Position numbers and translations under genes: made by a program
The notes under the pieces: model-generated
Database searches by the model: none
Told to the model about the DNA's origin: nothing
What the model saw: the letters and a program-made list of their open reading frames with translations, nothing else
Shown: piece by piece, positions 91-60,284 of the stretch
Layout of the letters: the number at the start of each line of letters is the position of its first letter
How positions within the stretch are numbered: the first letter of the stretch is position 1
From: Undaria pinnatifida
Lineage: Eukaryota > Sar > Phaeophyceae > Laminariales > Alariaceae
NCBI GenBank assembly: GCA_012845835.1
Contig: JABAKD010000023.1
Location: 25,399,972-25,463,971, forward strand
Direction: 5' to 3'
Length of the DNA stretch: 64,000 bases

Positions 91-177
91 TGAAGCTTGA
101 TCGGTTCTATAAACCCCACCGAGAGAGCGGGTAAGCTTCAATTCCAAAAAACACCGCACGTTTGTCCCGCTTGCCAT

Positions 178-1701: not shown

Positions 1702-1713
1702 CGGTGCCCAGTT

Positions 1714-4701: not shown

Positions 4702-4740
<39 letters not shown>
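1714..4740 (+). CDS. pol: Pol region of the Ty3/gypsy fossil: protease, RT, RNase H
   Basis: An aspartic-protease motif of DTAS type lies near 2277. Reverse transcriptase covers about 3250-3900 with the catalytic YMDD at 3727-3738. RNase H follows at about 4170-4540, with the HVDAS and TDHAALTHL-type segments. This order is that of Ty3/gypsy pol. The region does not read as a single open frame and is a fossil; I do not resolve it further. A long A-run lies near its 3' end. Confidence 0.85.
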
Positions 4741-4744
<4 letters not shown>

Positions 4745-6428
4745 ATGAACACTGCTTAGTTAGTCGAGAGTGATCGTGAATTGTTTACGAGTATTGTATC
4801 AGTATTTCGTGCATTAGACCCGGAGAAGTTAATAGAAGGGCAGAAATTAGAATTTAGAACATACAAGGTTTTAGATGATACTTACCATTATCCCCTTCCG
4901 CGACGAGAAACACTTCAATCCGCGAGTAGTTTATTCATAGTTGTCGTAGATCTTGATTTCAATCTTTTCGGGAACTAAATTACCAATACCAAATTTAGAT
5001 GAAGAAACATCCCCGTTTAATGTTCAGTTCCGAGTCCGTTTTCGTGGGGAAGGTCCAAATAGCGATGGCTGGTATCACCGTCGCCAAATTCCCCACTGCA
5101 GTGAATTTATTCGCTCATATTTTGCGAGCATCCAGGACGTCCCTCCTGATCCGCAAACACCAACAACTCCCGCGTCTCCAGTCTAGCAAACTGTCGAGGC
5201 AGAGCCAACGGTACCATCACGTTTGTGCCGCGGTATGAGTTGGATACCAAAGTCGATAATGGGCAGGGTAGGTCGTCAACCACCTCTCCATTATCTTATT
5301 TTCCTTTTGTGAGGAAATACTTGACATCATCGATGTTCGACGATCGTCGTTGTCAAGCAGCAGATTTTTGCATATACAGACTGATCCCCTGTATACAGTC
5401 TGCAAGTCCGTTGATGGTAATCGTTTTGAGTTAGACATGTTGTGTTCCTGTAAATTGTGGTCAGTGGGAGGAAGATCACATTTAGAGCGAATGGGGACGC
5501 CCACGAGCTCCGAATGTAATATCAACTCGCCAAGTTGCTGATGTACAAGATACAGAGATGTCTAATTCCCATCTGGTCGTTGTCATACACCAGATTGTAT
5601 CATGGTTGTTGCATAGCAGGTTCTGCCCTTGGTACAGGCTGAACGTGCGGGTGTGGAGATACTAAGTTGTATCTCAGTGCAATAAATAAACGAGGTACGT
5701 TAAATATTGTAGAGTTAAAGCTCTGCATATCTAAAAGGTGCATGTCTGTTTACAGGCATAATACCCTCAACTCGAACGAGGCTTCTTCGAAGAGTTACCA
5801 ATTGTTTATCGTTTAGATTGTCATATCTCGACGATAGCACTGAGAGATGTACTATCTTGAGACAAGCTAAGTTTCGATAGTAGTCTGTAACACCATGATA
5901 TATACCATGGCAATCCCACCATGCTACGTAGCAAGATGGAGGAGCCGGACCTTGTTTATCAGTATGTCAAAATCTTCATGAAGTACCAAGTGTTAGCAGT
6001 CTGAGCACACTTGAAGAAGGTCCTAGGTTGTCAATCGTACTACAGGTCACAACTGCACCCAGCAAAGTCGCGCAAGCTGAGGCTTAGCAGTAAACCTGTT
6101 CTCTGAAAGTTTCGTAGCTAGTTCGTGCTAGCTCTAAACTGTCATTGTCGTTCCCGTAGGAACATGTCCAAGGATTGTCTCGCGATTCGAAACGTTTCGA
6201 AGCAGCGATAACATTGTACAGCATGGAAGTCCGTTAATACTTGAGAAGAGTCATAATCATATTTACGTGTTTTATCGACACGAATATGAAGTCATATTGA
6301 CCAATTGTTTTACCCGAGTTTCGGACTCTGCTGCAATAATAGTGATTATCGGCGTATTCCAGGGAATTCCTAAGATCCTGTTATCCCAAGTCGACACCTC
6401 TTATAAGACGCGCACGTTTGCACGTCTG
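4741..6428 (+). other. 3' internal region of the Ty3/gypsy fossil, no recognisable gene
   Basis: About 1.7 kb between RNase H and the polypurine tract. Only short open stretches are present. I saw neither the HHCC zinc motif nor the DDE core of an integrase. This may be decayed integrase, 3' untranslated sequence, or both. Confidence 0.5.
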
Positions 6429-18304: not shown

Positions 18305-19607
18305 CATAAAAATAGTAGGTCTTAGGATAAGAGTGACACCAAAAACGCCTGTCTACCTACTCTACAGAACCAGATTTCAATTTGAAAATACCACGAAGTA
18401 CACCTGCCCGCACACTCTGCCCGCAGAGCTAACACACGTAGCAGCACGTAGCAGCACGTAGCGGCGGACCCGCAGTGGTTAACCCCAAGGTATCTACGGG
18501 GCTGAGAACCGCCAGCAGCATGGAGGCTGCTGCAAATGCTGCTGCCAGTCTTGCGAGCTCGGCTTTTCCTTGCCGCCTCGCGAGTCGGACGAAAGTGATG
18601 CACCGGTTTCCTCCTCGCTAGGCACGGCGTGGAGTGCAGTCTCGGATGAAAGACATGCACCCACGACCTCGCTAGGCTTGACGTGGATTAACGAGGAGCC
18701 TATGGTGGTAGATGACCAGGCAGCTCCTTACAACGACAACTCAGCAGCAAGACGCAGATTCCCCGGCGCCGCTTATCAGAGGGCCGGCGGCACGATACTC
18801 TCAAAGTAGTACAGGACGTAAAAATGGCAAGCTGATACTTCTATAAAGACAAGAAATCCGGGAGCTCAAGGCAGTGCAGATGACACCCTCCCAAATAAGA
18901 AACCCGCAGCCCCAGCCAGGATTCCTGTTTCTCGCTATCAAATAGGTACCTGATACTTGTACAAGCAGGTGTAGTGCAGATAGATTATTCTAGGCACAAT
19001 GCTGCTCATACCGCAGTAGAGGCAGAAATTAAATATTAATAGGAAAAAAAGGAAGAAACCGGAATAATTCCGGCCGAGGCTGAATTTCTTATTTGAGACA
19101 GGGTGAGTTCTACACACTATCTTCAGCACAGCGCCTCTCAATTATCTTCCTTTCCTGGTAAGGTACGTGTACTCGTATAGCCTTGCTTTCCTATTCATAT
19201 CCCTGGGTGTTTTTTTACATTTATGTCGTGCACTATTGTGCACTACTACAAGTTGTAGTGTAGTGCTGTATCCCATAATATGTACAACGGCAAGCATCAC
19301 CAACCAGCCGCAACAGAATGTTTTTTTCATGCGTTTGTGATACAAATGTTCACCTAAAGTATAAATGCCAACACTAAGTTACTTACCATTATAGTGGACA
19401 AAAAATAGGGCACCTCCCAATATAAAATCACCCATATAGTATATTACGAGTACCAACAACGCAGCTTGCAAAGATGAGTATTGACCTGAAATTCGTCGAA
19501 CTCACGGCTGACGTCCTTGAAAATTAGTTATATAATGTTGTCGTTGCTATACAACGCGTTTCTTTGTGCGTTGAACTCCTTGGTGTGTATCGAATGGATG
19601 AAGTAGG
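18305..19607. other. Non-coding flank between two mobile elements
   Basis: The region at about 18335-18410 is, in reverse complement, the same family as 41095-41165. A segment at about 18870-18960 (CCCAAATAAGAAA) resembles the repeats at 39640-40450. No gene is supported. TAGG at 19604-19607 is the left target duplication of the next element. Confidence 0.5.
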
Positions 19608-19875
19608 TGTTAAGATACGGCCTCGAAAGGCCTGTAGGTATCCGAATTTGAGATCATTTGGATGGGTTCGTATGATAAGGTTGGCGGTTTATATTCGGGG
19701 AAGTTAGGAATTAGATCGGAGGCACGCGCCTCCGATCTCAGAAGCTATCCCGGGCTCTGGTGAAAACGAATAAAGCTACATCTCTACGAAGGAACGAAAG
19801 TGAGTACTCTCCGAGGACCTACCCAATTGGCAGACCTGCAGGGGGCACTCTGTGTCCCCACCCATTAATTTCACA
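19608..19875 (+). repeat. 5' LTR of the giant element
   Basis: Starts TGTTAAGATACGG and ends TTTCACA, matching 35092-35360 almost perfectly. An internal inverted repeat around GATCGGAGGC/GCCTCCGATC lies at about 19714-19739. Confidence 0.93.
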
Positions 19876-19877
19876 AG

Positions 19878-19891
19878 TGGCGTCGTCGAGC
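19878..19891 (+). other. Primer-binding site of the giant element
   Basis: TGGCGTCGTCGAGC starts two bases after the LTR. The first 12 bases equal those of the TRIM primer-binding site at 45519. Confidence 0.75.
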
Positions 19892-20069
19892 TTGATGTGC
19901 TATTGTGGCAGCGTTCTTCCGGTTTCTCCGATTTTTTTTTCGTAGCGATTTTGCTTTTTTTTGCTTTCCATCGAGCCCACAACCCCTGTTCCTTCTCGGG
20001 TGGCTTCTCAATGGAGGGAGCGCCCTTCCTCCTACAACGGCGACCACAACAGCAGTGAGATGGCAGGGG

Positions 20070-20275: not shown

Positions 20276-21949
20276 GCATCAGTTCACCGCCAGCTGGTCA
20301 TAGACCACTCCGCAGTGGAACTGCCCGAGCCCCACCCATCAGACTTGTTTGCTCCGCGCTCTGCCAGCATGTTGCACAGCACATATCCGCGAGTTGCCAG
20401 CACAAGCCCCAAGATCGGCCATCGACTCGTACTTTTTTTTTCGCGCTTTGGGGCTCGGAGGCATATGCACGACATGCCACGGACAAGCATACTGGAATCA
20501 ACCCTTCGAATGACATTCGAAGGGGAATTCGCTCGCTGAGAGAGCCCATCGCCCAGCACATCCTTGCTGTCGGTGCCAGACCGTCCTTCGCGGGACCCCT
20601 TGGACTACGGGCACCGTGCTCTAGGAGCTCATGTCGGGGCTCCTTCCTTGTGATCTACCTGGGAAGAAACAGGCGGTGCTCGTGGAATGTTTGGGCTTTT
20701 TCGTTTGGAGATTTTCCAGTACACGCGTTATCGTATGGGTTTCAGTACGTACGTCGATCATTCTTGTGCGTCGAACAAGCAGCTGCCCTTGTGCCCCTTT
20801 CTGCCGAAATTAGTACAAGCTACGAATTTGGCACCTCGGACCCCTCTCCGATCTTTCTCGATCAACAGCGTTCCACTACTGCTGTCCGTCGCGTAGCTTC
20901 AACCACCATCATTTTTGCAGAGGTGCCAACTACAGTGCAGCACAATGGGCTCGCTGTCAATGCCTGCCATATACCGCCGGATTCTCTGCTGTAGAAGTCA
21001 CTGTACAGCAGGCAAGCCGCCTACTTTGCTCCTGCTCATACACCACATAGCTCGACCCTTCACTGCCCCAGCGTCCACAGTTACAGCACCGCAGCTCTGA
21101 CACCCCCCCACTGCTGTTCGAGTGCTCCTTGCAAGTTCGATTCGAGAGTTTTTTTTTTTTCGTCCTGGCCCCTCCGTGACTAGAACTTGAACCTAGTGAA
21201 CGCTGAAACTCTGTGCTGGCTTTTTGGGCAAGGCTGTTGGTGTGTGCGATGCCCTATATTCTCCCATTCATGGGTACGCGGGGACTATAATACCACTTTC
21301 TGTGTATGCACAGCTGTGACCGTGCGGCACTCCGCACTGCTGTCAACGTAACTGTCCCTTTATCGGTGGGAGCGGGTACGGATTTTTTTTTTCAGCTGTA
21401 CGGGCGTTAGGCCGTCTTCCTGCCCGTACATGTGCTGCCCTTCACGATATTGCTAGGGTCTACGCTGGAATTTTTTTTTTCTCTGCACATGTTCGGACAG
21501 CTACTGCCCGTTACAGAGCGCTTACTACACAGTTCGCGGAGATACTGCGCTTCACAGTTTTTACTAGTGCAGTGGAGAACAGCCCGTTTAATGCGGTACC
21601 TTTGGGGGCAAACAGCCTTTCTATTTGACTGTGGGCGTGCACATTTTTCTACAGCTGGTGTTGGTACTACACTACCCATCTTGGTGCGGTTGAAATTGCC
21701 GTTACCTGTGAACACAGCAGTGATACTGCAGCAATCAGCACTACTGCAGGCGCGACCGTCCCCCTTTAGTGCGGTCGGGGGAAACTACTTCGTTGGGGGG
21801 GTTATACTGCCCGTTTTTTTTTTTAATATACGGTTGGTGCGCGAACGCATACTGTCCTACCCCCCACTACACTACTGTGGGGGCAGATGCTGCCCATTTT
21901 TATACGGTTGGCTGCGCGATCCTTCACTGTGCTTCCCCCCTACACTGCA

Positions 21950-23400
21950 CCTAGGGTAAATGCTGCCCGTTTTAGTGCGACGAGTGTCAGCGTGTTGGGC
22001 GATCTTTCACTGTGCTCCCCCCCCTACACTACACCTAGGGTAAATGCTGCCCGTTTTGGTGCGATGAGTGTCAGCGTGTTGGGCGATCTTTCACTGTGTT
22101 CCCCCCCCTACACTACACCTAGGGTAAATGCTGCCCGTTTTGGTGCGATGAGTGTCAGCGTGTTGGGCGATCTTACACTGTGCTTCCACCCCTACACTAC
22201 ACCTAGGGTAAATGCTGCCCGTTTTGATGCGATGAGTGTCAACGTGTTGGGCGATCTTACACTGTGCTTCCACCCCTACACTACACCTAGGGTAAATGCT
22301 GCCCGTTTTGGTGCGACGAGTGTCAGCGTGTTGGGCGATCTTTCACTGTGCTCCCCCCCCTACACTACACCTAGGGTAAATGCTGCCCGTTTCGGTGCGA
22401 TGAGTGTCAGCGTGTTGGGCGATCTTACACTGTGCTTCCACCCCTACACTACACCTAGGGTAAATGCTGCCCGTTTTGGTGCGATGAGTGTCAGCGTGTT
22501 GGGCGATCTTACACTGTGCTTCCACCCCTACACTACACCTAGGGTAAATGCTGCCCGTTTTGGTGCGACGAGTGTCAGCGTGTTGGGCGATCTTTCACTG
22601 TGCTCCCCCCCCTACACTACACCTAGGGTAAATGCTGCCCGTTTGGGTGCGATGAGTGTCAGCGTGTTGGGCGATCTTTCACTGTGTTCCCCCCCTACAC
22701 TACACCTAGGGTAAATGCTGCCCGTTTTGGTGCGATGAGTGTCAGCGTGTTGGGCGATCTTACACTGTGCTTCCACCCCTACACTACACCTAGGGTAAAT
22801 GCTGCCCGTTTTGGTGCGATGAGTGTCAGCGTGTTGGGCGATCTTACACTGTGCTTCCACCCCTACACTACACCTAGGGTAAATGCTGCCCGTTTTGGTG
22901 CGATGAGTGTCAGCGTGTTGGGCGATCTTACACTGTGCTTCCACCCCTACACTACACCTAGGGTAAATGCTGCCCGTTTTGGTGCGATGAGTGTCAGCGT
23001 GTTGGGCGATCTTACACTGTGCTCCCCCCCCTACACTACACCTAGGGTAAATGCTGCCCGTTTTGGTGCGATGAGTGTCAGCGTGTTGGGCGATCTTTCA
23101 CTGTGCTTCCACCCCTGCACTACACCTAGGGTAAATGCTGCCTGTTTTGGTGCGACGAGTGTCAGCGTGTTGGGTGACCTTTCACTGTGCTCCCCCCCCT
23201 ACACTACACCTAGGGTAAATGCTGCCCGTTTTGGTGCGACGAGTGTCAGCGTGTTGGGCGATCTTACACTGTGCTCCCCCCCTACACTACACCTAGGGTA
23301 AATGCTGCCTGTTTTGGTGCGATGAGCGTCGGCGTGTTGGGCGAACCCTTTTTATGATAACCCCTACACTACACCTAGGGTAAATGCTGCCCGTTTTGGT
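21950..23400 (+). repeat. 84-bp satellite in the leader of the giant element
   Basis: About 18 copies of a unit that contains GGTAAATGCTGCCCG, GTGTCAGCGTGTTGGGCGAT, CACTGTGCT, a C run and TACACTACACCTAG. Neighbouring copies differ at a few positions and in the length of the C run. Because 84 is a multiple of three, long frames appear on both strands (a 28-residue repeat), but C-run length changes shift them, so coding is unlikely. Diverged relatives extend upstream to about 21130. Confidence 0.92.
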
Positions 23401-23854
23401 CCGATGAGCGTGGGCGTTTTGGGCGACGCTCTCCTGTGCTACCTCCCCCAGCCTAGGTCGAATGATGCCTGTTTAAGTGCGATGGCTGCAGACGTACCTT
23501 TACTGTGTTGCACCCCCTGCACTGCGGTTGGGGTCAGTGCTGCCCAGTTTTGGCTCCTTGTGCTGCGGTTCGTGCGGGCGTTACCCATATACCCTACGGT
23601 CAGACTGGGCGCTGCTCTTATGTTGCGGTTATGATAATTGGTACCTTGTTACTGCTGTGCTCCTCTTATACGGCTAGTTGACGTGGCTGCTACCATCACT
23701 GAGGCTGGATGGAGTCAAGGCCTTATATTGTCGCTGTGTGCTGAAACACAGATATACCGCCCCTTGGAGCAGGAACACCACAACAATTTATCTGTCTCCA
23801 TAGCTTCTTCACGCGTCGTTCGTATCCCCCCCCCCTTCACTGCTCCTAGGCACC

Positions 23855-26806
23855 ATGTCCACCAGCGACGATGGGGGCTACTCGGGCAGGCTGCGGTCCT
23901 CCGCGCGCCCCATCCAGGAGGCCCAGGGAGAAGGACGGGAACGCTCGAGGTCCCGCGAATCGAGACGAGGTGGACGCGCCGAAAACCTGGACGACGATAG
24001 TGACTCCAACACCAGTCAACAACACGGCACACGGTCCGACCACCCCGACTCGCCGGTCGACGAGGCGGAAAAACTCCTACCGGGTGCGGAGACATCACGA
24101 CGACAAATATCCCCAGCCTCGAGGGAGCATCTCCAGCTGTCCTCAGAGCACCACCGTCGACATCAGACCTCTCCGCGCTCGACAGAGCGCCTTCCCCAGA
24201 GCTACGGAGACCAGCGCTCCCATGCTGGCCCCTTAGACTCAGAGTCTGAAATTTCTCGGGCCCAGAGAGCTCTCGACGAAGCCAACGCGACCCTGCTTCG
24301 ACGAGAGGAACGCAAACGGTTAGACGACGAACGTCGACGCCGTGAGGATCACGCCATCGACCAGGCGAGAGCCGCTGCTCGTGAGGCATCCCGTGCGGTC
24401 GAAAGGGCACGCCAAGCCGTTGCCCTCTCAGCTACATCGACTCCGGCGAGAGCTGCTCCTTCCTCGGCGCGCCCGCTGAGTGTTGCCTCCCAAGATACAC
24501 GACCCGGGGACGACGTTTTCATGTCTGGCAGCGTCCAATACATGGCTACCACGCCGAGGGTCGAGTTCTCGGCGCATCTGGCGGAGGCGGTGATAGCAGC
24601 GGCCAAGGCCCTTCTAACTTCAGAGCGACGGTCGTCGTTCAAGGCGGAAGACCTTTCGGTCGGAGCAGTCTGGGCTCGCCGGGACAACTCGTCCGCCTTC
24701 GGGCAGATGAGGCGAGCACCTACCCTCGCTTTGGTCAAAGCCTTAAGATTGGCCCACGACGACGCCCCTGACCCAGTCCTGTGGCCGACTCCAAAGGAAG
24801 CGCTGGAAGGAAGGCGCTCCACCAAACAGCGGCGCGGTGGCAGCCGTGATCGGGGGGACCGCAACCGTGGAGGTGGCAACTCCGGGGGTGGTGGCGGCCA
24901 GAGTGGGGGAAACGGGGAAAACGGTGGGAGTGGTGGCCACCACAACCGTCGCGGTGGTGGCAACGGTGGTGGAAGCGCGGGAGGAGCGTCGGGTACTGGT
25001 GGTGGCCCACAGCGCCGCCAAGGAAGCAACCAGGCCCGAACCAACCGGGGCGGCGGTCGCAGCTCGGGAGGAGGCACCGGAGGACGGCGAAACAGCACAC
25101 GAGGGCCCTCAGCGTGGGACGGGTCGTCAACGTCCTCCCGCTCGTCTTCGAGCTCCAACACGGACCACGGCGAGGTGACCGTGGTAGCTGGCAGGAGGCA
25201 AGTAACTCCTTCTCTGGTGGATATTGCCTCGTCCGCCGACCGGCTGAGCAAACTTACTGTGTCGGGTGACCACACCAAGCCTGTTTCTTCGGATTTGGCT
25301 CGCGAGCGTACCGCCGAACTTGCTACCGCCGCGGCTCTAGCTAAATCCACGCTCGATGACTCGGTTAGGCGCGCCTATGTTAAGCTCTCCCACAAGGACG
25401 TATCACGCATTTCTGTGCTACCGTTCCCCGCCTCTTTGAACAAGTCTGACGGCACCCAGCAACTCACACGTTCGGTTCGGTCTGCCATGACTGACATACT
25501 CATGCGCTGTGACGACCGTTGCCAAGAGGGTGTACGTGCCCCCACGTGGGTTCCCGGTTGGATCCACCCCCTCCGCCTGGCATTCAACCGTGCCATAACA
25601 CCTGACAGGCCCACGACCGCTCGCATGACCACCTTGATCGACGATTTTTTTGGACAGGTGTCAAGAGCGTTGGACGGAGGAGCATCTGGGCCCGAGGCTC
25701 TCACCCTCCTGCTACGCCTGCTCGTGACACACTTTGACCGGGTCGACACGGGCGAAGGCTACACTAAGTTGCATACTTTTGGAGTGTGTAACGGCACGCC
25801 TTTTTCTGATTTCAGTCGGGAGTTCCGTGTGCTAGTATCGGCAGTCACGGGGAGTGAGCGTGTTTTGTCCCCGGGGACGGATGTCGTGCTGGAGGTGGTT
25901 AGGATGGCGGTCAACGAGCAGTTTCCGACGCTCATGCCTACGTTATACCCTGGCTCGAAGGCTACGGACCCACGGCCATACGCCTCGTTAGATGCCATGT
26001 GGAAAGCGTTCAGTGACTTGGCGCATAATAAGACACCTGCCGTCAACGGCGAAAAACATTTTACTCTACCTGTTTCTTCGACGGGATCGCGGTCATCCGC
26101 CCCGTCGGGGCCCCGGCCCGCCGTTCATGGGCGCGGCCAGGGCCGAGTGCTGTCTCAGTCGCCTTCTTGGCAGACGGGTTCGAGCCATAATCCGATTGTA
26201 ATGCCGATTGTTGCTTCCACCGACCCCTGGCTCGACAAAATGTCCAACTGCTGGCCCCTAGAAGAACAACACTATGCAGAAGTTTTCGCTGTTAGTGCCT
26301 CGTTTAAGACCGACGACCCTCCCCTCTGGAGCGGCCTCCTCACGCCCTCTGCCCGCGCCGCGGCTCTCCGAGAAAACAGGGGTCATTGCCTCAACTGTCA
26401 CGAAGACACTCATTCCTTACGCAACTGTAGGCATCCCTTTATCAACGCCAGCGGCTGTCTAAACCCTGAACTTGGCCAACTTGGCGATGATGACGTTTTC
26501 CGACGGTGGCAAGCACGTATGGTTAGCTACCGCCGCGACGGACGCTATTCTCGCTCGCAAACGTACAACAAAAATCGCCGAAATCGTTCAAACCAATCAC
26601 GAGGGTACCCACGGGACCAGGGACAGACAAACAGCCACAGCGGTAACAACAACAGCACATACACGCCTGGCCAACAAGGTTCTGTCCCGCCCTCACCAGC
26701 CTCCTCGGCTTCCGTGTCTGCTCCGGGGAAACGTTTCGGGGCAACCCACAATCCGAGCGGAAACCCCAACGCGCGCCAACCAGGTACCTTTCGCACTGGC
26801 AACTGA
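23855..26806 (+). CDS. gag: Gag protein of the giant element
   Basis: 983 residues from an ATG in good context. The N-terminal third is charged and likely helical. Residues about 327-415 form an RGG/Gly-rich stretch, as in RNA-binding proteins. The middle to C-terminal part is capsid-like. A CCHC zinc knuckle (C-x2-C-x4-H-x4-C) sits at about residues 845-858, followed by a basic tail. It would form the particle and bind genomic RNA by family knowledge. The long Gly-rich insertion is unusual for gag. Confidence 0.88.
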   Translation: MSTSDDGGYSGRLRSSARPIQEAQGEGRERSRSRESRRGGRAENLDDDSDSNTSQQHGTRSDHPDSPVDEAEKLLPGAETSRRQISPASREHLQLSSEHHRRHQTSPRSTERLPQSYGDQRSHAGPLDSESEISRAQRALDEANATLLRREERKRLDDERRRREDHAIDQARAAAREASRAVERARQAVALSATSTPARAAPSSARPLSVASQDTRPGDDVFMSGSVQYMATTPRVEFSAHLAEAVIAAAKALLTSERRSSFKAEDLSVGAVWARRDNSSAFGQMRRAPTLALVKALRLAHDDAPDPVLWPTPKEALEGRRSTKQRRGGSRDRGDRNRGGGNSGGGGGQSGGNGENGGSGGHHNRRGGGNGGGSAGGASGTGGGPQRRQGSNQARTNRGGGRSSGGGTGGRRNSTRGPSAWDGSSTSSRSSSSSNTDHGEVTVVAGRRQVTPSLVDIASSADRLSKLTVSGDHTKPVSSDLARERTAELATAAALAKSTLDDSVRRAYVKLSHKDVSRISVLPFPASLNKSDGTQQLTRSVRSAMTDILMRCDDRCQEGVRAPTWVPGWIHPLRLAFNRAITPDRPTTARMTTLIDDFFGQVSRALDGGASGPEALTLLLRLLVTHFDRVDTGEGYTKLHTFGVCNGTPFSDFSREFRVLVSAVTGSERVLSPGTDVVLEVVRMAVNEQFPTLMPTLYPGSKATDPRPYASLDAMWKAFSDLAHNKTPAVNGEKHFTLPVSSTGSRSSAPSGPRPAVHGRGQGRVLSQSPSWQTGSSHNPIVMPIVASTDPWLDKMSNCWPLEEQHYAEVFAVSASFKTDDPPLWSGLLTPSARAAALRENRGHCLNCHEDTHSLRNCRHPFINASGCLNPELGQLGDDDVFRRWQARMVSYRRDGRYSRSQTYNKNRRNRSNQSRGYPRDQGQTNSHSGNNNSTYTPGQQGSVPPSPASSASVSAPGKRFGATHNPSGNPNARQPGTFRTGN

Positions 26807-29800
26807 CAGGGCGACGGCGGTACGGCACACCCGACCCGTACGCCGACGGCACTGTCGGGGACACTTCCTTTGATTTCGCAAGATGCTCGTGTGCCTGTCG
26901 TTCGCCTTACACGTGGCGCGGCACAAATTACTTCTGTCAAGAGCCCAAGGGCTCCTACGTCGCCTGATGACTTTCACGGCGCAGTGCCGGCGGTGGGGAC
27001 CAGGGCTCCCAGTATGCCCCCCCCCAGCCAGGCTACATTTTCTACGAAGGGGGTGCGCGCCCACAGTGACGCCCCCCTCGATCATGGTCCGAGTTCGGCA
27101 ATGGGGACCAGTGCTTCCAACGCCGTTAACCCCTGCCGTGGCTCAAGCTCGACAACGGAGGCACGCGCCCCTAACGCTGCCCCCCTTAACCATGACTCAG
27201 GAGCCTGCACCTTGCACGCTCCCCTCAGGCACGCGTCGCGCAGCAAGACAACTGCGGCGACGACGCGTCGCCTCCATACGCGAACGGGTTCGTCTCCGCC
27301 TCTTTCTGACCGTAAAGCGGCGGTTGGCTTGAGGTGTGGGAAAGCCAACCCATATGCACCGAGATCTTTTCCAAGATTTGAGTCGGTGTCTCCTCGCGAT
27401 AGTAGCGGGCGCTCTATCCTTTTTCCCATCAAGGAGGAGCCGACAAGCTTAGCTACCTCGTCTCTCTCCTCCAAGAGGGCTAACGGGAAGGAGCCCTCTC
27501 GGGCGAAGAATTTATTTCCACTTGCCCGAGCCCCGCTCTCGAAGACGCCCACAGGGTCTACGGGCCCTGCTCCGTCTTTAAGCACGCTAACCCACGTGCA
27601 TCAGGCTACGTCTGCCCCAGTGGCACAGGATATAGATCCGACACTGCGCAACGGGCCAGTGGTGACGCCACGGCCTCCAGCCCGATCAGCTGGACGCTAT
27701 TCCCGTGAAGATACGGAAGAATCGCGCCTCTCGTCAAGCAGTAACAGCTCCGAGCCCCCTGTCCCTTCGGGTGCAGTGAGAGCAGTTCCTTGCGATTTTA
27801 CGCCAAAGAGCGACAAGGCCACGACGCGACCACCCGTGGGTTCGGGCTCGCGCCGTGCTCCCGAGGCCGGGCGTCCTCAGACGGGGACGCTGCAGGCCCA
27901 AAGTGCCAGAGACTGGTGTCCCCAGACGGGGACATTACAAGCTCATATGCCTAACACGGCCTCCGACGGGTTGGCACCGTCGACTTTTGACCCTTCCCTC
28001 GAATACTCTACAGACAAAGTAGTGTTGTTCTGGCAGCCGCCGTCCTTTTTCTCGCAGTGGTCTCCTTCGTCGTTTGTCGTCGACGACGTCTCATATTCTT
28101 GCGCGGAGCAGTTTATGATGGCTGAAAAGGCTCGGCTTTTTAAAGACCATCGCGCAGTGGAGCTCATCATGTCATCGTCTGACCCCAGCACACACAAACG
28201 CGTCGGTCGAGGCGTGCGCAATTTTGACGCCGCCGTTTGGGACAGGGAGAAGCAAAATGCCGTGTTATCTGGCAACTATGCCAAATTTACGCAGAACCCA
28301 GCCATGAAAAATCACCTTTTGAGCACTGGCAACAAATTTCTGGCAGAGGCCAGTCCTCTAGACACTGTGTGGGGTATAGGTCTCCGGGCGGACGACCCCC
28401 ACGCCAAGGATCCACACAAGTGGAGAGGAAAACATTTGCTCGGTGAGGCACTCTCTGCCGTTCGCGAAGCAATTCGCGACTGCGAGGACGGATCGCCACA
28501 CCCGGCCTCCCCTCGTCGATTCCGCAGGCCCACCGGGAATGCTGGAATCCATGAAATTTCGTCCGCTCAGCAGTCGCGTTTGGGGACCGCGGTCGGCGCT
28601 GCCCAAGGCCCTCCTTCGGCCTATTTTTCGGGTACACCCGCCGATCAAAGCCCGGAGGTTTTGGCGGTAGCTTCTCGCGGCGCCTCAGACCGCGCACTGC
28701 CAGAACATGGCCCCTGCCTCGTTGGGGGTACCGTGACGCTGGACGACGATTCTTTCACTACCGATATTGCAATACATAGCGGAGGGGGCGCTATTGCGCC
28801 CTACATATGTACAGCGCTGCTTGACACTGGCTCCCCCCAAACCTTCATCCGTCGTGACGTGTTGGATCGTATGCTATCGGTAGGCGCCGCCTCATCGACG
28901 TGCGAGCGGCCTAGCAGCCCTCGCTCCTGGGGTGGCTTTGGCGAATCCGCCCCTTTACGGACCGCGACCCACATCCGTCTGAGCGTTCAATTCTTCCTCG
29001 AAAAAGAACCAACATGCTCTCTCGCGGTGTGGGCATGCGTGGTCCCTCCTTCGGTCATGCAGCACGCTGTCTTGCTGGGCCGCGACAGTTGGATGCGCTT
29101 CAACACCCGTTCATACCGCGCCCTGCCCCCTCGTCCTCTCGATAATCGGGTTTTGGGCGAGCTGACGTTGTCCCACCACGCCACAGCAGGCGTAGCGGCT
29201 TATGCCGTCGACCCCGCAGCATCGAACGGTGCTTTCCACCTTCGCTATGATGGCTCTACAGGCGTCTCTTTGTCGGACGAGCCCCAACTGCTCGAGGTCA
29301 ACTTGGTGCGCAGTAACGGCTCTCCTGCGCTCACAGGACACTATCTTGTCGACATACTGCCGCAGCCGGATGTTCTTTCGGGACAGAAACACTTTGTTGC
29401 TTCAGGACGACAGGTGCTTCCCGTCATAGGTGTCGCGGACCTCGAGCCAGGCGACCTTATCGGGGTCGCCGACGCCCCACTTTTGCGCATCCCGCTGGGT
29501 GCCTTACAACACCCTATCAAGGCTGCGGGTCCCCACCCTGGCCAGACTTCGGACAGCCAGGTCTCTGCGGTCGCGAGCCCGACCGGCGCGGAGGAGATAG
29601 TTCCCGCCGTACTGTCGCCCTCGCCGACGCTTATGGAACGTTTGAACCCGGTCCAACGTTCTGCATTTCTACGCGTCTGGGCCCGACTCCCACCGCACCT
29701 GCGGGAGATTGCGTTCGACTTACACGACCCTGGTTGGGACCCCCCGACCATTGAGCAACTGGGGGATGTGCTCTGCGACTTTTCTGACGTCTTCTCCACC

Positions 29801-32800
29801 TCGAAGACGGATTTTGGGTCATGCTCCCTAATGCCCTTTGAAATCTCGGTTCCGGAGGGCAGCGCTCCGGTCACTTCACGGCCCCATCGCATAAACCCTA
29901 TACTGGCCAGAGAAGTGGACGCGACCCTTAACCAGTACCTCGCGGCTGGGCTGATTCAGCACTCGACCTCACCGTACTCGAGCCCGCTGGTGGTCATCCC
30001 GAAGAAATCTGGCGGTGTGAGGATCACGGTGAACTACAAGAAACTCAACCAAATTAGCAAGCTCAGTCAACTGCCGATTCCGCGCGTGGACCAGGTCCTG
30101 GACTCCTTGGGCTCAGGTCGGGTGTTTTCCCTGTTCGACTTGGTTTCCTCGTTCCACCAGATAACGGCACACAAGGACACAGTTCCCCTTACAGCGTTCT
30201 GCACACCCACGGGCCTTTATGAATGGCTCGTTATGCCCCAGGGCAGCAGCGCCTCGCCTGGGTGGTTCGTCAAGGTTATCAATGAGGTGATCAAGGGTTT
30301 GACACAGGTGGCAGCTTACCTCGACGATGTCATCGTGTTCGACTCCGACCCGGTAACGCATGTTCGGACGATTCGCTCTCTCTTCGAACGCCTTCGAAAG
30401 CACAATCTCAAGCTTTCCCCCTCGAAGGCGCGTTTGGGCGCTACCGATGCGAACTTTCTAGGCCACTCCATTTCTCCAGCAGGCCTACGCCCAAATTCGG
30501 AAAAAGTGTCGGCATTGACCAATATGCCCATGCCCACTGACGTTAAGCAGGTGCGCGCACTCATGGGTGGTATCAACTATTACCGCAAATTTTTGCCCGA
30601 CTTATCGAAGAGACTTCGTCCTATTAACGCACTCCTTCGGAAGGGGGTAAAGTTTGTCTTCACGCCTGATATGGAGAAGTTGGTGAGAGAAATCTTGGCG
30701 GAGCTCACGACCCCGCCGGTCCTCGTTTTCCCTGATTGGGACGCCGTCGCCGACGGCACTCGCCCGTTCCACGTGTACTGCGATGCCTGCATCGACGGGT
30801 TCGGAGCCGCTCTCGAACAGGAGCAGACGGACGGCTCCATAAAACCCATCGCATACATCAGTCGAGCTACGCTCGACTCGGAAAGGCATTGGACTCCTCT
30901 CGATTTGGAAGCTGGCAGCATCGTCTGGGCTCTCAAGCGCCTCCGCGGCTACCTTTGGGGCACCAAGTTCCGAATATTCTCAGACCACAAGGCTCTGGAA
31001 AACATAGGTAAAGTGGGGAATCACAACGGCCGAGTCCAGAGATGGCTCGAGTTCCTCACCGCATTCGATTACACCCTCGAATACCGAAAAGGAAGCGCAA
31101 ACGGCAACGCTGACTTCCTGTCTCGCTTGCCGGAGCCTGCCACGGAACACGACCGCAATGGTTCGACGAGCCTTACCCCTGTTGAGGATGGTGGTATATA
31201 CCTCATACGGGCTTGCGGGCTGTACACTCCTTCTTCTCCGATACCGGGTGTCGGCTTGGGTGGGCTAATGCCCCGCACCGAAAGTAATGCCTTGGGTGGG
31301 CTTCCTCTCACTCTCGCCGACTTTTGCGATTTTCGCACACACGGGCCACGTATGAGGCTTGACGACCTTCCTACTCCTTCCAGGAGATTCGTCGCTCGTG
31401 TTTCTGCATCCACCGCCACCGTCGATAGCTCGCCCGGCCGAGGCGGGGGCTCGCGTACAGCCGACTACAATTTCGCTTCGGTTTTTGCTGTACCCATCGT
31501 GACCAACGAGGACTCCGCCGAAGCCCCGGCTGTCACGACATCGGTGGCCCAACCGACTCCTTCCCGGAGTTCGGTACAAGGGACAAACCCCGTCGAGCCC
31601 ATGGGCCCGACCGCGTCGGTCCCAACCTCGCCTGGATCTCCGGCGCCCCAGACGATGACGCCCTTTTCGGACCGCATCTCCACTCGGACGCGCCGGCGTT
31701 CAGCAACAGCAGCTGGTAAGGCACCCCCTGCTGTCGACTATGGCTTCGGGCCCGGCGGGGTTCCCCAGTCATCGCCCAGACGAGTTACAACTCCGCCGCG
31801 AGCCCGACGGCCGCGGCCGGCTCCGTCAGTCGCCGCGACCCCTACTCTTGCCGACCCGCCGGCCCGCACGGTACCACTTCCGTCCGACCACGACCACGCA
31901 GAGCCTATGGGAACTCCGCTCCTACGGCTTACGCCTCCTCCTGGTGAAACGCCGGCTACACTTACAAGGTCGGATGCCCTCGGCGACGCTGCTGAGTTGC
32001 GATTCGCGGATTCCGTCGCGCGTTATTCACATGCCGATTGGAAGCGCGAACAACACGCAGAGCCGACGTGCCACGCCACTATACGTTACATCTCTATCGG
32101 CCGGCCGTCGGCCCTGCCACCGGACTTCTTGGCATGCTACCCCTCGCCCAAGCGTCCCTCTCTCTCAGACATCCAGGAACTGGCGGATAAGGGTCGACTA
32201 CATACAACCGACGACGACTTTGTCCTACTCGTCCGTAAACCGACACTCCCGCCAACAAGCTCTGACAAACCGAACTCTGTGGGGCGAGCTGCTTGCTTGC
32301 TAAACAACGAGCCAGTTCGCATCTACGTTCCCCTGCTCATGCGCCCTTGGATCATGCAAGCTTGCCACTCGACGGCCTCCTGCCACCTTGGCACCACGCG
32401 CACGTTGCGCATGCTGGAGCGTTTTTATTGGTGGATTGGCATGAGTGTGTGTACCCGGTGGTGGCTTCGCCACTGCTTGAAGTGCCAAGCGCGAAAAACC
32501 CCACGGCTGACTGTCCGCTGGCCCATCATCACAATGCCTCTGCCGGAAGGTCCAGGTATCGCCGTCAGTGTTGACTACTTCGGCCCCCTTCCGGCCACAC
32601 CGCGAGGCAACACCTACATCCTGCTGTTCACCGATCGCTTCAGTCGTCGGGCCGACATGTTCCCCGTCACTGCCGCTGAGTTCACCGCGGAAGGTACAGC
32701 CAATATCCTGGTGAACCAATACATCCCCTTGTGGGGGTGCCCGCGCACCATACTCTCGGACAACGGACTGCAGTTCTGCTCCAAGCTTTCACAAGCTGTA

Positions 32801-33715
32801 TATCAGCTGTTAGGTGTACACAAGCTTGCTACAAGCTCCTACCATCCCAACTGTAACGGGGGCGTTGAGCGGGTAAATCACACTATGGCACAAATGCTGG
32901 CTATGGTCGTCAACGAGCGACAAGACGACTGGGACTCGCATCTGCCCCACGTCGAATTCGCTTACAACAACTCTGTCAGCGCGGCGACGGGTTTGGCGCC
33001 CAACGAGGTCCACATGGGCAGACTCCCACGGCCCCCCCTGACGATTTTCGACCGCAAAGGTGTCGTGGGACACCAGAGTCTGGCCCGTGACCACCTGGCC
33101 TATTGCGATTTGGCCACCGACCGGCAAAAGCGCGCGAACGACATTGTCCGCGCACACCACGCCCTCACCGTTTCCCGTGTTAACCGCAGAAACTCCGCCC
33201 TCGCCGACGCGCTGCGTCCAGCACCTAACTTCACTGTGGGTGGTTGGGCATGGGTATACAATTCTGCCTCTACCATCCGCCAGGGTGTGAAAGCGAATAC
33301 CGACGCCAAGGTACTCAAGGCCAAACTCGCGCTTAACTGGACGGGCCCATACAAGGTCCTGGCCGTCGGTCCCTGCTCCGCCGCCGAGACCCCGGACGGC
33401 TCGCCGCTCGGGAGCAACCTCCTTTATTTGGATCTCCCTTCCGACCTGCCTGGTTCGGACGCTCGTCGGCGTGTGGCTATCGAGCGCTGCAAACCCTGTG
33501 CCAACCCCCACGACAGCGGGGACATGCCCAAATACCTACCGGCGGGGCTGACACAGTATGTGCTCAACAAATTTTCCAAGAAGTCCCCGCCGTACCACGT
33601 CACTCAAGACGACGTTTCGACTCCCCTCCAACGGCTGGAGGTGGAGCAGATCACTGGTCATCAGTCGGTACGGGGGCGAGGTGGCGTCATCGCGGTGCTA
33701 TACAAGACGCATTAG
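26807..33715 (+). CDS. pol: Pol polyprotein with NADAR domain, protease, RT, RNase H, integrase
   Basis: The frame continues in the same phase after gag; the first codons have no ATG, so expression probably depends on gag translation. Numbering from 26870: residues 1-380 are Ser/Pro-rich and low complexity, and a NADAR (YbiA-like) domain spans about 381-538. The aspartic protease has DTGS near 651, and RT has YLDD at about 1150. RNase H begins near 1300 (YCDACIDGFG). Then come an integrase HHCC zinc motif (about 1830-1878) and a DDE core (D about 1901, D about 1964, E about 2000). All core domains look complete. Confidence 0.92.
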   Translation, partial: QGDGGTAHPTRTPTALSGTLPLISQDARVPVVRLTRGAAQITSVKSPRAPTSPDDFHGAVPAVGTRAPSMPPPSQATFSTKGVRAHSDAPLDHGPSSAMGTSASNAVNPCRGSSSTTEARAPNAAPLNHDSGACTLHAPLRHASRSKTTAATTRRLHTRTGSSPPLSDRKAAVGLRCGKANPYAPRSFPRFESVSPRDSSGRSILFPIKEEPTSLATSSLSSKRANGKEPSRAKNLFPLARAPLSKTPTGSTGPAPSLSTLTHVHQATSAPVAQDIDPTLRNGPVVTPRPPARSAGRYSREDTEESRLSSSSNSSEPPVPSGAVRAVPCDFTPKSDKATTRPPVGSGSRRAPEAGRPQTGTLQAQSARDWCPQTGTLQAHMPNTASDGLAPSTFDPSLEYSTDKVVLFWQPPSFFSQWSPSSFVVDDVSYSCAEQFMMAEKARLFKDHRAVELIMSSSDPSTHKRVGRGVRNFDAAVWDREKQNAVLSGNYAKFTQNPAMKNHLLSTGNKFLAEASPLDTVWGIGLRADDPHAKDPHKWRGKHLLGEALSAVREAIRDCEDGSPHPASPRRFRRPTGNAGIHEISSAQQSRLGTAVGAAQGPPSAYFSGTPADQSPEVLAVASRGASDRALPEHGPCLVGGTVTLDDDSFTTDIAIHSGGGAIAPYICTALLDTGSPQTFIRRDVLDRMLSVGAASSTCERPSSPRSWGGFGESAPLRTATHIRLSVQFFLEKEPTCSLAVWACVVPPSVMQHAVLLGRDSWMRFNTRSYRALPPRPLDNRVLGELTLSHHATAGVAAYAVDPAASNGAFHLRYDGSTGVSLSDEPQLLEVNLVRSNGSPALTGHYLVDILPQPDVLSGQKHFVASGRQVLPVIGVADLEPGDLIGVADAPLLRIPLGALQHPIKAAGPHPGQTSDSQVSAVASPTGAEEIVPAVLSPSPTLMERLNPVQRSAFLRVWARLPPHLREIAFDLHDPGWDPPTIEQLGDVLCDFSDVFSTSKTDFGSCSLMPFEISVPEGSAPVTSRPHRINPILAREVDATLNQYLAAGLIQHSTSPYSSPLVVIPKKSGGVRITVNYKKLNQISKLSQLPIPRVDQVLDSLGSGRVFSLFDLVSSFHQITAHKDTVPLTAFCTPTGLYEWLVMPQGSSASPGWFVKVINEVIKGLTQVAAYLDDVIVFDSDPVTHVRTIRSLFERLRKHNLKLSPSKARLGATDANFLGHSISPAGLRPNSEKVSALTNMPMPTDVKQVRALMGGINYYRKFLPDLSKRLRPINALLRKGVKFVFTPDMEKLVREILAELTTPPVLVFPDWDAVADGTRPFHVYCDACIDGFGAALEQEQTDGSIKPIAYISRATLDSERHWTPLDLEAGSIVWALKRLRGYLWGTKFRIFSDHKALENIGKVGNHNGRVQRWLEFLTAFDYTLEYRKGSANGNADFLSRLPEPATEHDRNGSTSLTPVEDGGIYLIRACGLYTPSSPIPGVGLGGLMPRTESNALGGLPLTLADFCDFRTHGPRMRLDDLPTPSRRFVARVSASTATVDSSPGRGGGSRTADYNFASVFAVPIVTNEDSAEAPAVTTSVAQPTPSRSSVQGTNPVEPMGPTASVPTSPGSPAPQTMTPFSDRISTRTRRRSATAAGKAPPAVDYGFGPGGVPQSSPRRVTTPPRARRPRPAPSVAATPTLADPPARTVPLPSDHDHAEPMGTPLLRLTPPPGETPATLTRSDALGDAAELRFADSVARYSHADWKREQHAEPTCHATIRYISIGRPSALPPDFLACYPSPKRPSLSDIQELADKGRLHTTDDDFVLLVRKPTLPPTSSDKPNSVGRAACLLNNEPVRIYVPLLMRPWIMQACHSTASCHLGTTRTLRMLERFYWWIGMSVCTRWWLRHCLKCQARKTPRLTVRWPIITMPLPEGPGIAVSVDYFGPLPATPRGNTYILLFTDRFSRRADMFPVTAAEFTAEGTANILVNQYIPLWGCPRTILSDNGLQFCSKLSQAVYQLLGVHKLATSSYHPNCNGGVERVNHTMAQMLAMVVNERQDDWDSHLPHVEFAYNNSVSAATGLAPNEVHMGRLPRPPLTIFDRKGVVGHQSLARDHLAYCDLATDRQKRANDIVRAHHALTVSRVNRRNSALADALRPAPNFTVGGWAWVYNSASTIRQGVKANTDAKVLKAKLALNWTGPYKVLAVGPCSAAETPDGSPLGSNLLYLDLPSDLPGSDARRRVAIERCKPCANPHDSGDMPKYLPAGLTQYVLNKFSKKSPPYHVTQDDVSTPLQRLEVEQITGHQSVRGRGGVIAVLYKTH
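28013..28485 (+). other. NADAR (YbiA-like) domain encoded within pol
   Basis: Recognised by the family pattern: a hydrophobic strand, FFSQWSP (SNF-like position), then YSCAEQFMMAEKARLF, matching the conserved (S/A)E-x-x-x-x-A-x-K segment. RVGRGVRNF and VWD follow, then a K/F-rich helix, VWGIG (the conserved WG) and HLLGEALSAVRE (the LG-x-x-L-M-x-v-R end). NADAR proteins are N-glycosidases acting on ADP-ribose adducts or on early riboflavin intermediates. Its role in a retroelement is unknown. Confidence 0.85.
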
Positions 33716-33748
33716 GCGGGACTCTCCGAACCGTCCTGGGAGCGGGAA

Positions 33749-34228
33749 ATGGACCTTCACCTCTCCCGCTCCCACATATTGCGTTATTGGGCCGGAACCC
33801 CGGACCAGCACCGCCAAACCAACCGCCTTTACCGCCGAATGCGGATCGGGGCGGCACAGCGTGAGCTCTCCCGCAACAACGGGGAACGTTTCCTAGCGCC
33901 GGGCTACGCCTGTGTTTCCCGCACCGATTGGCTCCGTCGCTACCACGACACCGTACTTCCTAAGGGAGCCCACTTTTGGTACAAGGGAGACGATGGTTTA
34001 TGGTGGCTAGGAAAAATCAGCGCGAGCACTACCGAGGACAAGGTATACCTGGTCCGCTTTCTGGACGACCCGGGACCGATTAAACTCCCTCTTCCCCCGG
34101 CGCGCTACACGACTTCAACGGGAGCCGTACGAGGCTCTTGGTGCTTGCAAGTTCACATCGCTAGTGCGTTTCCTCGGGGAATCCAACGTAACGTAGACGA
34201 ATCTCGAGGCGCGGCCGTGGCCAGTTGA
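33749..34228 (+). CDS. Third ORF of the giant element, Tudor/chromo-like module
   Basis: 159 residues from an ATG 33 bases after pol and in the same phase. The N-terminal half is basic (RRMRIGAAQREL). Residues about 74-137 (HFWYKGDDGLWWLGKI, then VYLVRFLDDPG and LPPARY) have the aromatic, strand-rich pattern of a small Tudor- or chromo-like barrel. In chromoviruses a chromodomain at the pol C-terminus guides integration. This may be an independent or read-through version of such a targeting module. The assignment rests on pattern only. Confidence 0.55.
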   Translation: MDLHLSRSHILRYWAGTPDQHRQTNRLYRRMRIGAAQRELSRNNGERFLAPGYACVSRTDWLRRYHDTVLPKGAHFWYKGDDGLWWLGKISASTTEDKVYLVRFLDDPGPIKLPLPPARYTTSTGAVRGSWCLQVHIASAFPRGIQRNVDESRGAAVAS

Positions 34229-35091: not shown

Positions 35092-35360
35092 TGTTAAGAT
35101 ACGGCCTCGAAAGGCCTGTAGGTATCCGAATTTGAGACCATTTGGATGGGTTTCGTATGATAAGGTTGGCGGTTTATATTCGGGGAAGTTAGGAATTAGA
35201 TCGGAGGCACGCGCCTCCGATCTCAGAAGCTATCCCGGGCTCTGGTGAAAACGAATAAAGCTACATCTCTACGAAGGAACGAAAGTGAGTACTCTCCGAG
35301 GACCTACCCAATTGGCAGACCTGCAGGGGGCACTCTGTGTCCCCACCCATTAATTTCACA
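35092..35360 (+). repeat. 3' LTR of the giant element
   Basis: Near-identical to 19608-19875 and followed by the TAGG duplication (35361-35364). Confidence 0.93.
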
Positions 35361-35364
35361 TAGG

Positions 35365-35841
35365 GCTTTCGGTGACAAAATTCGACTGGGAAGCGATGAG
35401 GGTGATTCCGCGAAAATAGACGACACGAACACCACAAATAATAACAGGACCGACGTAACTCTAGTAAAACCAAATGATTGGCGATGCTCCTGAAAAATTC
35501 TTCTTCCAATACAGACACTTTTGTGTGGTGCATGTCTTGGCACTGAATCGTTCTTGCCGCCCGGCGACATCCAGCACCCCCATCATGCCAGGCGAAGGAA
35601 GAGAAATATCAGGGGGGTGGGGAATAGCTACGAGTAGGGACCAGGTAACCCCCCCCCCCCTTCTTCTTTCTCTCTCCCCAGGGATGGATAAAAAGGAAAA
35701 CATGGGAAAGGGAAAACTAAACAAAAAGGGACCACAATTTTGTCGACAACGGTGGTAGTATCGCTGTTGCCCCTCCCCCTGAGATGAAACAGACAATCAA
35801 ACCCAGGGCCACACAAAACGAAACGGCCGGCTCGCAAGCGA
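35365..35841. other. Flank, no supported gene
   Basis: Short frames only. Together with the sequence left of 19604 this is the split target of the giant element. A C run lies at about 35648-35660. Confidence 0.4.
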
Positions 35842-36126
35842 AGCAAAAACTTAAACTCGTACGATATTTATTCTTTGTGAATTAACAAAAGGCAAACTTG
35901 ACCCGACACTTCAGACGCTAACCTACCACACCAAGATGCAAAAACTTAAACTCGTACGATATTTATTCTTTGTGAATACCCAAGAGGCAAACTTGACCCG
36001 ACACTGCAGACGCTAACCTACCACACCAAGATGCAAAAACTTAAACTCGTACGATATTTATTCTTTGTGAATTAACAAGAGGCAAACTTGACCCGACACT
36101 GCAGACGCTAACTTACCACACCAAGA
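35842..36126. repeat. Tandem repeat, three copies of about 95 bp
   Basis: Each unit begins GCAAAAACTTAAACTCGTAC, contains ATTTATTCTTTGTGAAT and GGCAAACTTGACCCGACAC, and ends CCACACCAAGAT. Copies start near 35843, 35938 and 36033 and differ at only a few positions. Confidence 0.92.
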
Positions 36127-37190
36127 TGGGCCCGAGTGCACTTTTCACATTCACACCATGACCACCACCGCTTCCCGTCTGATCTAGTTTTTTCCCAGTT
36201 CTACAGGCCTTGGGCCGGTGCTTTTCTGGCGGCACAGTGCGTTGGGGCCGCCCCTCCCTCCCACGCAGGGCAGGGTGAGCCTCCTGGTACGCGCCTTCTT
36301 GCCGACTGTGGCCGCGGTGAAAGAAAATCTGAGGGCCCCGGCATGGGCCCTTGGGCTTCTTGGGCGTCTGTTGGCGGCGCCAAACTACCCTGCCTCATCC
36401 CCGCCGCCGCCAAAATCGAACATCTTTGCAGCTGACGCCGACACGCCTGCACCTGCCGCTGCGCCCCCCCCTTCGCTGCCGCCACGAACGCCAACAACAC
36501 CTGCCCCATACCAACTCCGCGAAACAGCAGCGGAAACAGCGCTACCGACAACACCCGCAATCATCGCGCCCCCGTCAGCTTCCTGCAACCTAGCACGCAA
36601 TGCAGTATGTCGTTGACAAATAGAGATATCGTATTCCGAACGTTGGCGTGCCCTTTGATTTGATCATAGCGATTCTGAAGTTGTTGGGAGGTCGACAAGA
36701 TCAACCGGCCCCTCACCCCGAGCATCAGGTCCCCACATTCTCTGAGAAAGGTCGCTTCTTTCACCAGTGTCTGCCACGTCGAGAGCAGAGACCCACTCAG
36801 GAAACATCGGGCTATCCGGTGACCAGCTGGCCGTGTCGCTTTAGATAATCTCAAACTCACACTGTTCGTAGCACGCTCCAATCTACTTCGGCAGTCCGCG
36901 GTTCTTCGCAGCCATCTAAATGTCCCAGCGATAATTGAACTCCAGCAGATCGAGTGGGTCCAGCGCAGAAGAAGCGCAATAGTAGCCTGCGGAGGTAACG
37001 ATGAAAACCCTTAAAAAAAGGACAAACAGTTACAGTACGCGGAAAACATATTGGACAGGTGTACGTCAGGTCCATCATAACACGAACTACCTGGTTGACC
37101 ACCAAGCCGAAGAAAAAACTCAACATGTTACAAACACTGCAACAAACGAAACCGTGCGGTATACTTGACGGAAAATACTATGAGCATCGG
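36127..37190 (-). other. Possible 3' exons of the exonuclease-type gene, unresolved
   Basis: The minus strand shows short protein-like stretches. One near 36930-37040 reads LDLLEFNYRWDI, followed after a stop by MAAKNRGLPK; another near 36710-36830 reads MFPEWVSALDVADTGE. They resemble successive parts of one protein but are separated by stops or frame changes. This part is either split by introns I cannot place or decayed. A Gly/Ala-rich minus-strand frame (36385-36600) is low complexity. Confidence 0.35.
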
Positions 37191-55903: not shown

Positions 55904-56435
55904 TGTTCGTGATAGCGGCATGTATGTATCAACTGTACTGCGGTGAAACTCTGATTGGTTGGTTTGAATAGCAGAACTGTTGATTGTATGTTGTTGTACC
56001 AGAATACTCTTCTTGTGGTGCTACGGTACTTCGGTAGATTGTACATGTGCACGAGTTATACATCGGACCGTAGTGGTGTGTACGGTACGTTGGTATGTCG
56101 GTACGTTGGACATATTGACGAGTAGGAACATTCCTGTAGTGTTGCTAACACGATATAGCTTGTCTCAACGAACAGCCTAGCAATAAGTTACAGTTACATA
56201 CGTTGTGTCACGGAGGTAAGTTACAGGGATCGTCTCGTGGTATCACCCACGAGCAGTCCCACGGGTATGTACGAGTAGGCACTATGCACGGAGGTTCAGG
56301 TATTCGACTACGAGCGGTTGTTACTGGGCTGTGGAGAGTTGGCCCACATGACCCACTCCACTTTCTGACCTGTCTCTCCAGACATTGGTCTCTCTAATAT
56401 AATACCTTTCTCCAGAAGCCACTGATTTACCAACA
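55904..56435 (+). repeat. 5' LTR of the copia fossil
   Basis: 532 bp, matching 60285-60816 except for about three bases clustered near 56285-56299. A perfect palindrome (CGCTATAGCG) follows the LTR end directly. Confidence 0.92.
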
Positions 56436-56523
56436 CGCTATAGCGCTATCGGTCGACTGCTGTACGTCCCCCTGGACTGTGTTCGACGAGACTGTGAGGG
56501 CGGCTTGATCAACCGGCCTCGTC

Positions 56524-57645: not shown

Positions 57646-58097
57646 TCGGGCAGGAATGCACCAGCCCACCCAAATCAACACCTCGCGTAGGGCAGCTGGA
57701 AGGGAGGCGACCACAAGAGTGGACGAGGTAAATTAATTCTTCACGCCGGGTGCGGTTAATCGGATGCGACCGGTTCTGTCGCGTATCGCTGCAGTCAGCG
57801 GTTACCTACAGAGAAAATCGGCGTTTCCTGCCTTTGCCTTGTTCTAGAGTAGCGACACCAGCAACAGGGAAGGTAGACTCATACGCGGTAAGGAATTCCA
57901 TCCATCATTGTACACGAGCGTTCGTTGTGCTCGCCATTTGTTATGAAGGATTTCCATCACATTGTGATCAGCAAAATGTAGCGACACCAGCAACAGCCCT
58001 GGAAGGCAAACTTATAGGCCGCGAGGAATTCCATCCATCATCGTACACGAGCGTTCGTTGTGCTCGCCATTTTTTATGAAATATTTCCATTACACTT

Positions 58098-60209: not shown

Positions 60210-60284
60210 AAGTCTGAGTCGTTTTGTTTTTGTTTTTGTTTGATATGTATTTGGTCTGGTAGATACAACAGCCCCTAGGAAGGG

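Follow-up and report, generated by a model that had tools for sequence, protein, structure and literature searches.

The 64-kb stretch of the Undaria pinnatifida genome analysed here (64,000 nucleotides of contig JABAKD010000023.1; hereafter the window) contains a young, multi-copy Ty3/gypsy retrotransposon of about 15.7 kb, whose pol gene carries a NADAR domain of the YbiA type. The domain (28028-28477, on the forward strand like all features of the element) matches the Pfam profile PF08719 with 164.1 bits against a cut-off of 35.1, over profile positions 2-163 of 163, and the modelled domain shows the NADAR/YbiA fold. The observation of an intact-looking NADAR domain in a retrotransposon pol, made in an earlier sequence-only reading, is confirmed.

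The element is bounded by long terminal repeats (LTRs) at 19608-19875 and 35092-35360, which were located by blastn and alignment to each other. Both begin with TG and end with CA, and a 4-bp target site duplication, TAGG, flanks them (19604-19607 and 35361-35364). The LTRs are 99.3% identical, with a single substitution and a single 1-base gap between them, and the element is therefore considered young, as had been proposed. A putative primer-binding site, read by eye, starts with TGG two bases past the 5' LTR (19878-19895), and the 5' leader contains an array of about 18 tandem copies of an 84-bp unit (21829-23455; families D1 and D2 of the repeat search). The gag-like open reading frame (ORF) 1 extends from its first ATG to a TGA (23855-26806; the frame is open from 23804) and has no Pfam match. 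The pol ORF2 (26807-33715, 2302 amino acids) follows in the same frame, the two being split by this single TGA (26804-26806). Downstream of NADAR, which is itself preceded by a long linker, pol contains the aspartic protease motif DTGS, read from the sequence (28823-28834), the reverse transcriptase (RT) PF00078 (29996-30472, pol residues 1064-1222), the RNase H domains PF17919 and PF17917 (30659-31066, residues 1285-1420), and the integrase zinc-binding domain PF17921 with the integrase core PF00665 (32330-32848, residues 1842-2014), the score of the latter being just below its cut-off. This is the Ty3/gypsy order by Pfam, with the protease recognised by its DTGS motif alone, and together with the LTRs and the target site duplication it places NADAR within a Ty3/gypsy pol, as the sequence-only reading had it. 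An in-frame TAG (33713-33715) ends pol within a putative chromodomain, whose remainder and tail would be encoded by the following 170 codons up to a TGA (33716-34228). The matching stretch of one open copy gave a sub-threshold chromodomain match (PF00385, E=0.048), and the tail of one open copy gave weak PDB matches to M-phase phosphoprotein 8 chromodomains (E 0.5); a single-sequence fold model of the C-terminal tail (pLDDT 32.6) was too poor for use.

Related copies were sought with the NADAR profile in the 511-Mb genome, where 150 of 1454 first-look candidates were scored. All 150 lie above the NADAR cut-off, and many show decay in the form of stops or short frames. Open frames of 2473 amino acids were found at nine of these places, and one other place, C35:7337071, has a frame of 2302 amino acids like that of the window. 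The initial residues of the domain served to divide sixty places and the window into family A (43 copies, the window included) and family B (18 copies); open frames of 2371 amino acids, at five scored places, all belong to family B (L127, L128, L132, L133 and L134). A TGA lies 407 codons upstream of NADAR in 24 of the 43 family A copies, the window included, and 318 codons upstream in 10 of the 18 family B copies. This recurrence at a fixed distance suggests that Gag-Pol may be produced by stop-codon read-through of the TGA.

The comparison of the window with the family B copy L127 bears on the persistence of the domain. All 150 NADAR positions could be aligned without a single indel, at 48% identity, as compared with 81% in RT and 55% in the protease region; the linkers before and after NADAR are only 26% and 34% identical. 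Synonymous sites are saturated between the two families. An arms race acting on NADAR is unsupported, as NADAR and the protease region have diverged to a similar degree between the families (48% and 55% identity), and with saturated dS a ratio above 1 is beyond reach in this comparison. We note that RT and NADAR diverge out of step: the RT and NADAR identities are 81% and 48% for L127 and the window, and 67% and 51% for family A and P0001, a pol from elsewhere described below.

Variation among copies was examined by counting nonsynonymous and synonymous (N:S) shared variants, i.e. minor alleles present in two or more copies. In family A, NADAR had 8:11 and the upstream linker 57:33, while the post-NADAR segment, which includes the protease, had 26:13 and RT 1:7 (43, 30, 35 and 37 of the 43 copies used, respectively). 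The corresponding counts in family B were 4:5, 35:15, 6:10 and 0:6 (15, 13, 11 and 15 of 18 copies). With the shared variants pooled, NADAR differs from the upstream linker (p=0.032), and in RT the shared variants differ from the singletons (p=1.5e-5). An accidental, functionless capture would agree with the singleton changes, which are common in the family A NADAR (73 N:48 S). It is nevertheless very improbable, as the domain has been retained without an indel over 150 codons in two families whose synonymous divergence is saturated, and is found in P0001 as well. Judged from these sequences, NADAR is a lasting domain, retained by Gypsy families that have diverged from each other.

The residue list of PMC11543638 was carried over to the element via alignments. 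In the numbering of that paper, E43, K50, K75, R79, W89, E125, D130 and W133 are conserved in the window, which has Phe for Y84 and Lys for R93. The active-site residues numbered E34, K41 and E114 on the translation of 28007-28486 are identical in the window, in family B and in two proteins from elsewhere, P0001 and P0002. Among these four, 8 of the 11 listed positions are identical vs. 39 of the 139 other positions (one-sided p=0.004). E114 occupies the E125 position, which is Asp in BC4488 and His in phage NADARs (PMC11543638). The window, family B, P0001 and P0002 all carry the glutamate of the YbiA subfamily there, not the aspartate of the DarT1-linked antitoxin type represented by BC4488. 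The element NADAR is probably enzymatic, a predicted N-glycosidase. A non-catalytic module whose pocket holds ADP-ribose, NAD-capped RNA or a ribonucleoprotein partner, and which selects or localises element RNA, would have a parallel in the first domain of SNA-3, which lacks the catalytic residues (PMC9303266). We regard this as quite unlikely: a pure binder could lose E34, K41 and E114, which are identical in all four, and SNA-3 function is impaired when the homologous residues of its domains 2 and 3 are changed (PMC9303266).

Elsewhere, 3 of 390 candidates of pol length matched: P0001, P0002 and P0003, the last of which has NADAR alone by Pfam. P0001 could be aligned with the window pol at 46% identity over 1514 columns and has the same domain order (NADAR 51%, RT 67% identical), but no integrase match within its 1680 amino acids. 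P0002 resembles the window in being a Gypsy pol with NADAR directly before the aspartic protease, followed by RT, RNase H and integrase, and its NADAR is 48% identical; it differs in having no long linker and in that the RT-RNase H stretch is only 33% identical. A search with P0002 as query gave 4 of 872 candidates, i.e. P0002 itself and three proteins without RT by Pfam. The domain is present in related elements, with active-site residues kept between families. Neither of the two refuting outcomes named in the sequence-only reading applies, these being the lack of a NADAR profile match and the absence or decay of the domain in every related element, and that reading is supported in part. Its supposition that such LTR elements had gone undescribed did not stand up: NADAR-carrying Gypsy elements, e.g. 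Gypsy-12_Ec32, were described in the brown alga Ectocarpus in 2025 (PMC12477816), and a NADAR-bearing Gypsy is already described in kind. That lineage belongs to another genome (an assembly of 200.2 Mb vs. 511 Mb here), and we liken it to ours by its description, not by pol sequence. A C-terminal chromodomain is a trait of that lineage; the element here has a putative one, for which an open copy gave the sub-threshold match mentioned above. The same paper describes a NADAR in a retroelement protein of Crassostrea gigas, but there it is ORF1 of a Tx1 LINE. Among the literature matches listed for NADAR, YbiA or DUF1768 in retroelements or brown algae, there was no description besides PMC12477816. 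The present analysis adds another genome and two diverged families to this picture, together with the conservation of the active site and evidence of selection from the copies, within the limits set out below; it also brings in P0002, a NADAR-bearing Gypsy pol of a second kind.

The origin of the domain was approached with a 64-row tree, in which 12 contig fragments were taken as element copies by similarity. The window, these fragments, P0001 and three pol-less proteins (from Pylaiella, Scytosiphon and one EukProt entry) form a clade (94/90). The Pylaiella littoralis protein P0060 (248 amino acids, 59% identity) and the Scytosiphon promiscuus protein P0114 (252 amino acids, 57%) thus fall among the element NADARs but have no pol domains. 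Since such pol-less brown-algal genes exist, an algal intermediate or a flow from element to host may have occurred. Of 1666 places in this genome, 150 were scored against P0114, and no clear orthologue was seen among them, although intron-split genes could escape such a search; these 150 are at most 54% identical to P0114, and the best ones lie within element frames. The branching order of the next-closest bacterial NADARs is not settled in this tree, and the best named bacterial matches by identity are from Nannocystis (57-61%). Acquisition from bacteria was proposed for the Ectocarpus NADAR (PMC12477816). The NADAR of P0002 groups with the viral contigs L002 and L004 (95/84 in this tree, 92/77 in a second one). 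Separate origins of the family A and B NADARs were considered and not upheld: the two are apart in the free tree, but one clade is not rejected (approximately unbiased test, p=0.19) and pol is collinear. A single clade of the A-type copies, P0001 and P0002 is not rejected either (p=0.087; p=0.20 without P0002).

Some gene neighbourhoods and fusions were recorded along the way. L002 looks phage-like, and its NADAR stands beside a NAMPT/NAPRTase gene with an IMPDH-family gene nearby (L002:4308-10814). Neighbours of two myxobacterial NADARs were taken from the ORF list alone; in Nannocystis bainbridge (L008:3164-4486) a YbiA-like ORF, seen by eye in that list, lies just upstream of the NADAR nearest to that of the element. 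The EukProt protein P0126 combines HSP70 and NADAR domains according to precomputed Pfam annotation. The rest of the window contains a Copia element (55904-60816) with an RVT_2 ORF and 532-bp LTRs that are 99.4% identical, a further retroelement (94-4745) whose gag, RT and RNase H frames are broken and whose three ORFs do not match NADAR, large repeat blocks of about 92-98% identity (43230-63730), and a 95-bp unit present in three tandem copies (35840-36128). Scans of the 64 kb for tRNAs and, at the gathering threshold, for Rfam families found nothing.

The most economical reading suggested by these data is that of a Pol-borne N-glycosidase that removes adducts in the particle. Gag-Pol would be produced by read-through of the TGA, and NADAR would be packaged into the virus-like particle, where the protease would probably release it. 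There its substrate would be ADP-ribose in N-glycosidic linkage (guanine-ADP-ribose), or an adduct of similar chemistry, on element RNA or cDNA, and hydrolysis would keep reverse transcription and integration unblocked. NADAR would be a captured damage-control enzyme, and the adducts could come either from a host weapon or from ordinary damage. The dUTPase of betaretroviruses, which stands beside the protease, occupies a comparable position. Assayed NADARs hydrolyse guanosine-ADP-ribose in vitro (PMC11125620). That a YbiA-type enzyme in the particle clears ADP-ribose-type adducts from element RNA or cDNA seems plausible to us, if somewhat short of an even chance.

A number of observations weigh against constraint on the domain or against this role. 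The D86 equivalent is Ala in the window. In family A, with 41 of 43 copies used, the listed positions are as variable as the others (5 of 11 and 65 of 139, p=1), and E34, K41 and E114 are altered in 2, 1 and 2 of the 41 copies; such equal variability is expected of decaying copies and gives no extra support. Shared and singleton variants of NADAR do not clearly differ (p=0.064), and the family B post-NADAR segment is constrained like NADAR (6 N:10 S). Moreover, the copies for these counts were chosen by NADAR score, which is a bias favouring constraint. In a second set chosen by RT DNA (40 scored of 394 candidates), the shared variants were 1 N:4 S in NADAR vs. 25 N:14 S in the flanks (p=0.14; 32 gapless NADARs, two flanking segments from 24 and 27 of 30 copies). 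This set agrees in direction but is too small alone, which suggests that more weight be given to the comparison of families A and B. Finally, YbiA and a phage NADAR gave cells no protection from DarT1 despite their in vitro activity (PMC11125620), and DarT (PF14487) has no match in this genome, in a search whose control was positive in 1 of 14 genomes.

NADAR was present in 35 of the 40 RT-picked places. Beyond 30 known copies, it was found in three of eight retrieved places and other DNA stood at its site in five, two of which had partly LTR or 3' element sequence there; the last two of the 40 gave partial NADAR matches. A collinear pol variant without NADAR was not seen among the 40.

The lack of a DarT match would agree with a housekeeping enzyme that acts in or near the particle on free derivatives of ADP-ribose or on reactive N-glycosides of the riboflavin type, unrelated to defence or to adducts on element nucleic acid. 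The retained YbiA-subfamily glutamate also fits, and bacterial and plant NADARs clear riboflavin-pathway intermediates (PMC11543638, PMC9303266). We nonetheless consider this rather unlikely: it leaves the retention in a retroelement pol unexplained, and the residues by which 8bau binds the phosphates of ADP-ribose (R79, W89, D130 and W133; PMC11543638) are kept as well. The same negative search bears in the opposite sense on a counter-defence enzyme, which would strip ADP-ribose that a host transferase attaches to retroelement RNA or cDNA. Such a role has precedents: a NADAR undoes guanine ADP-ribosylation by DarT1 and rescues cells (PMC11543638), and NADARs in polyproteins of positive-strand RNA viruses were proposed to reverse host ADP-ribosylation (PMC9503650). 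The role requires a host transferase, but neither DarT nor ART (PF01129) has a match in this genome, although the ART search control was equally silent, and the similar identities of NADAR and protease region between families show no sign of an arms race; we hold it to be unlikely.

Equally doubtful is the wider proposition that the domain is a packaged retrotransposon de-ADP-ribosylase, kept because hosts ADP-ribosylate guanine of foreign or reverse-transcribed nucleic acid, and possibly recruited repeatedly by Gypsy lineages. The pattern behind repeated recruitment is that the NADARs of A, B and P0001 lie near brown-algal ones and that of P0002 near phage-like ones; the tests are compatible with one origin. 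If true, host marking would point to an undescribed eukaryotic defence by nucleic-acid ADP-ribosylation. Accessory enzymes inside retroelement polyproteins are uncommon, and each tends to mark a real obstacle in the life cycle. The presence of NADAR in diverged Gypsy families makes it testable which RNA, cDNA or cofactor adduct is removed, and whether that adduct is made by the host.
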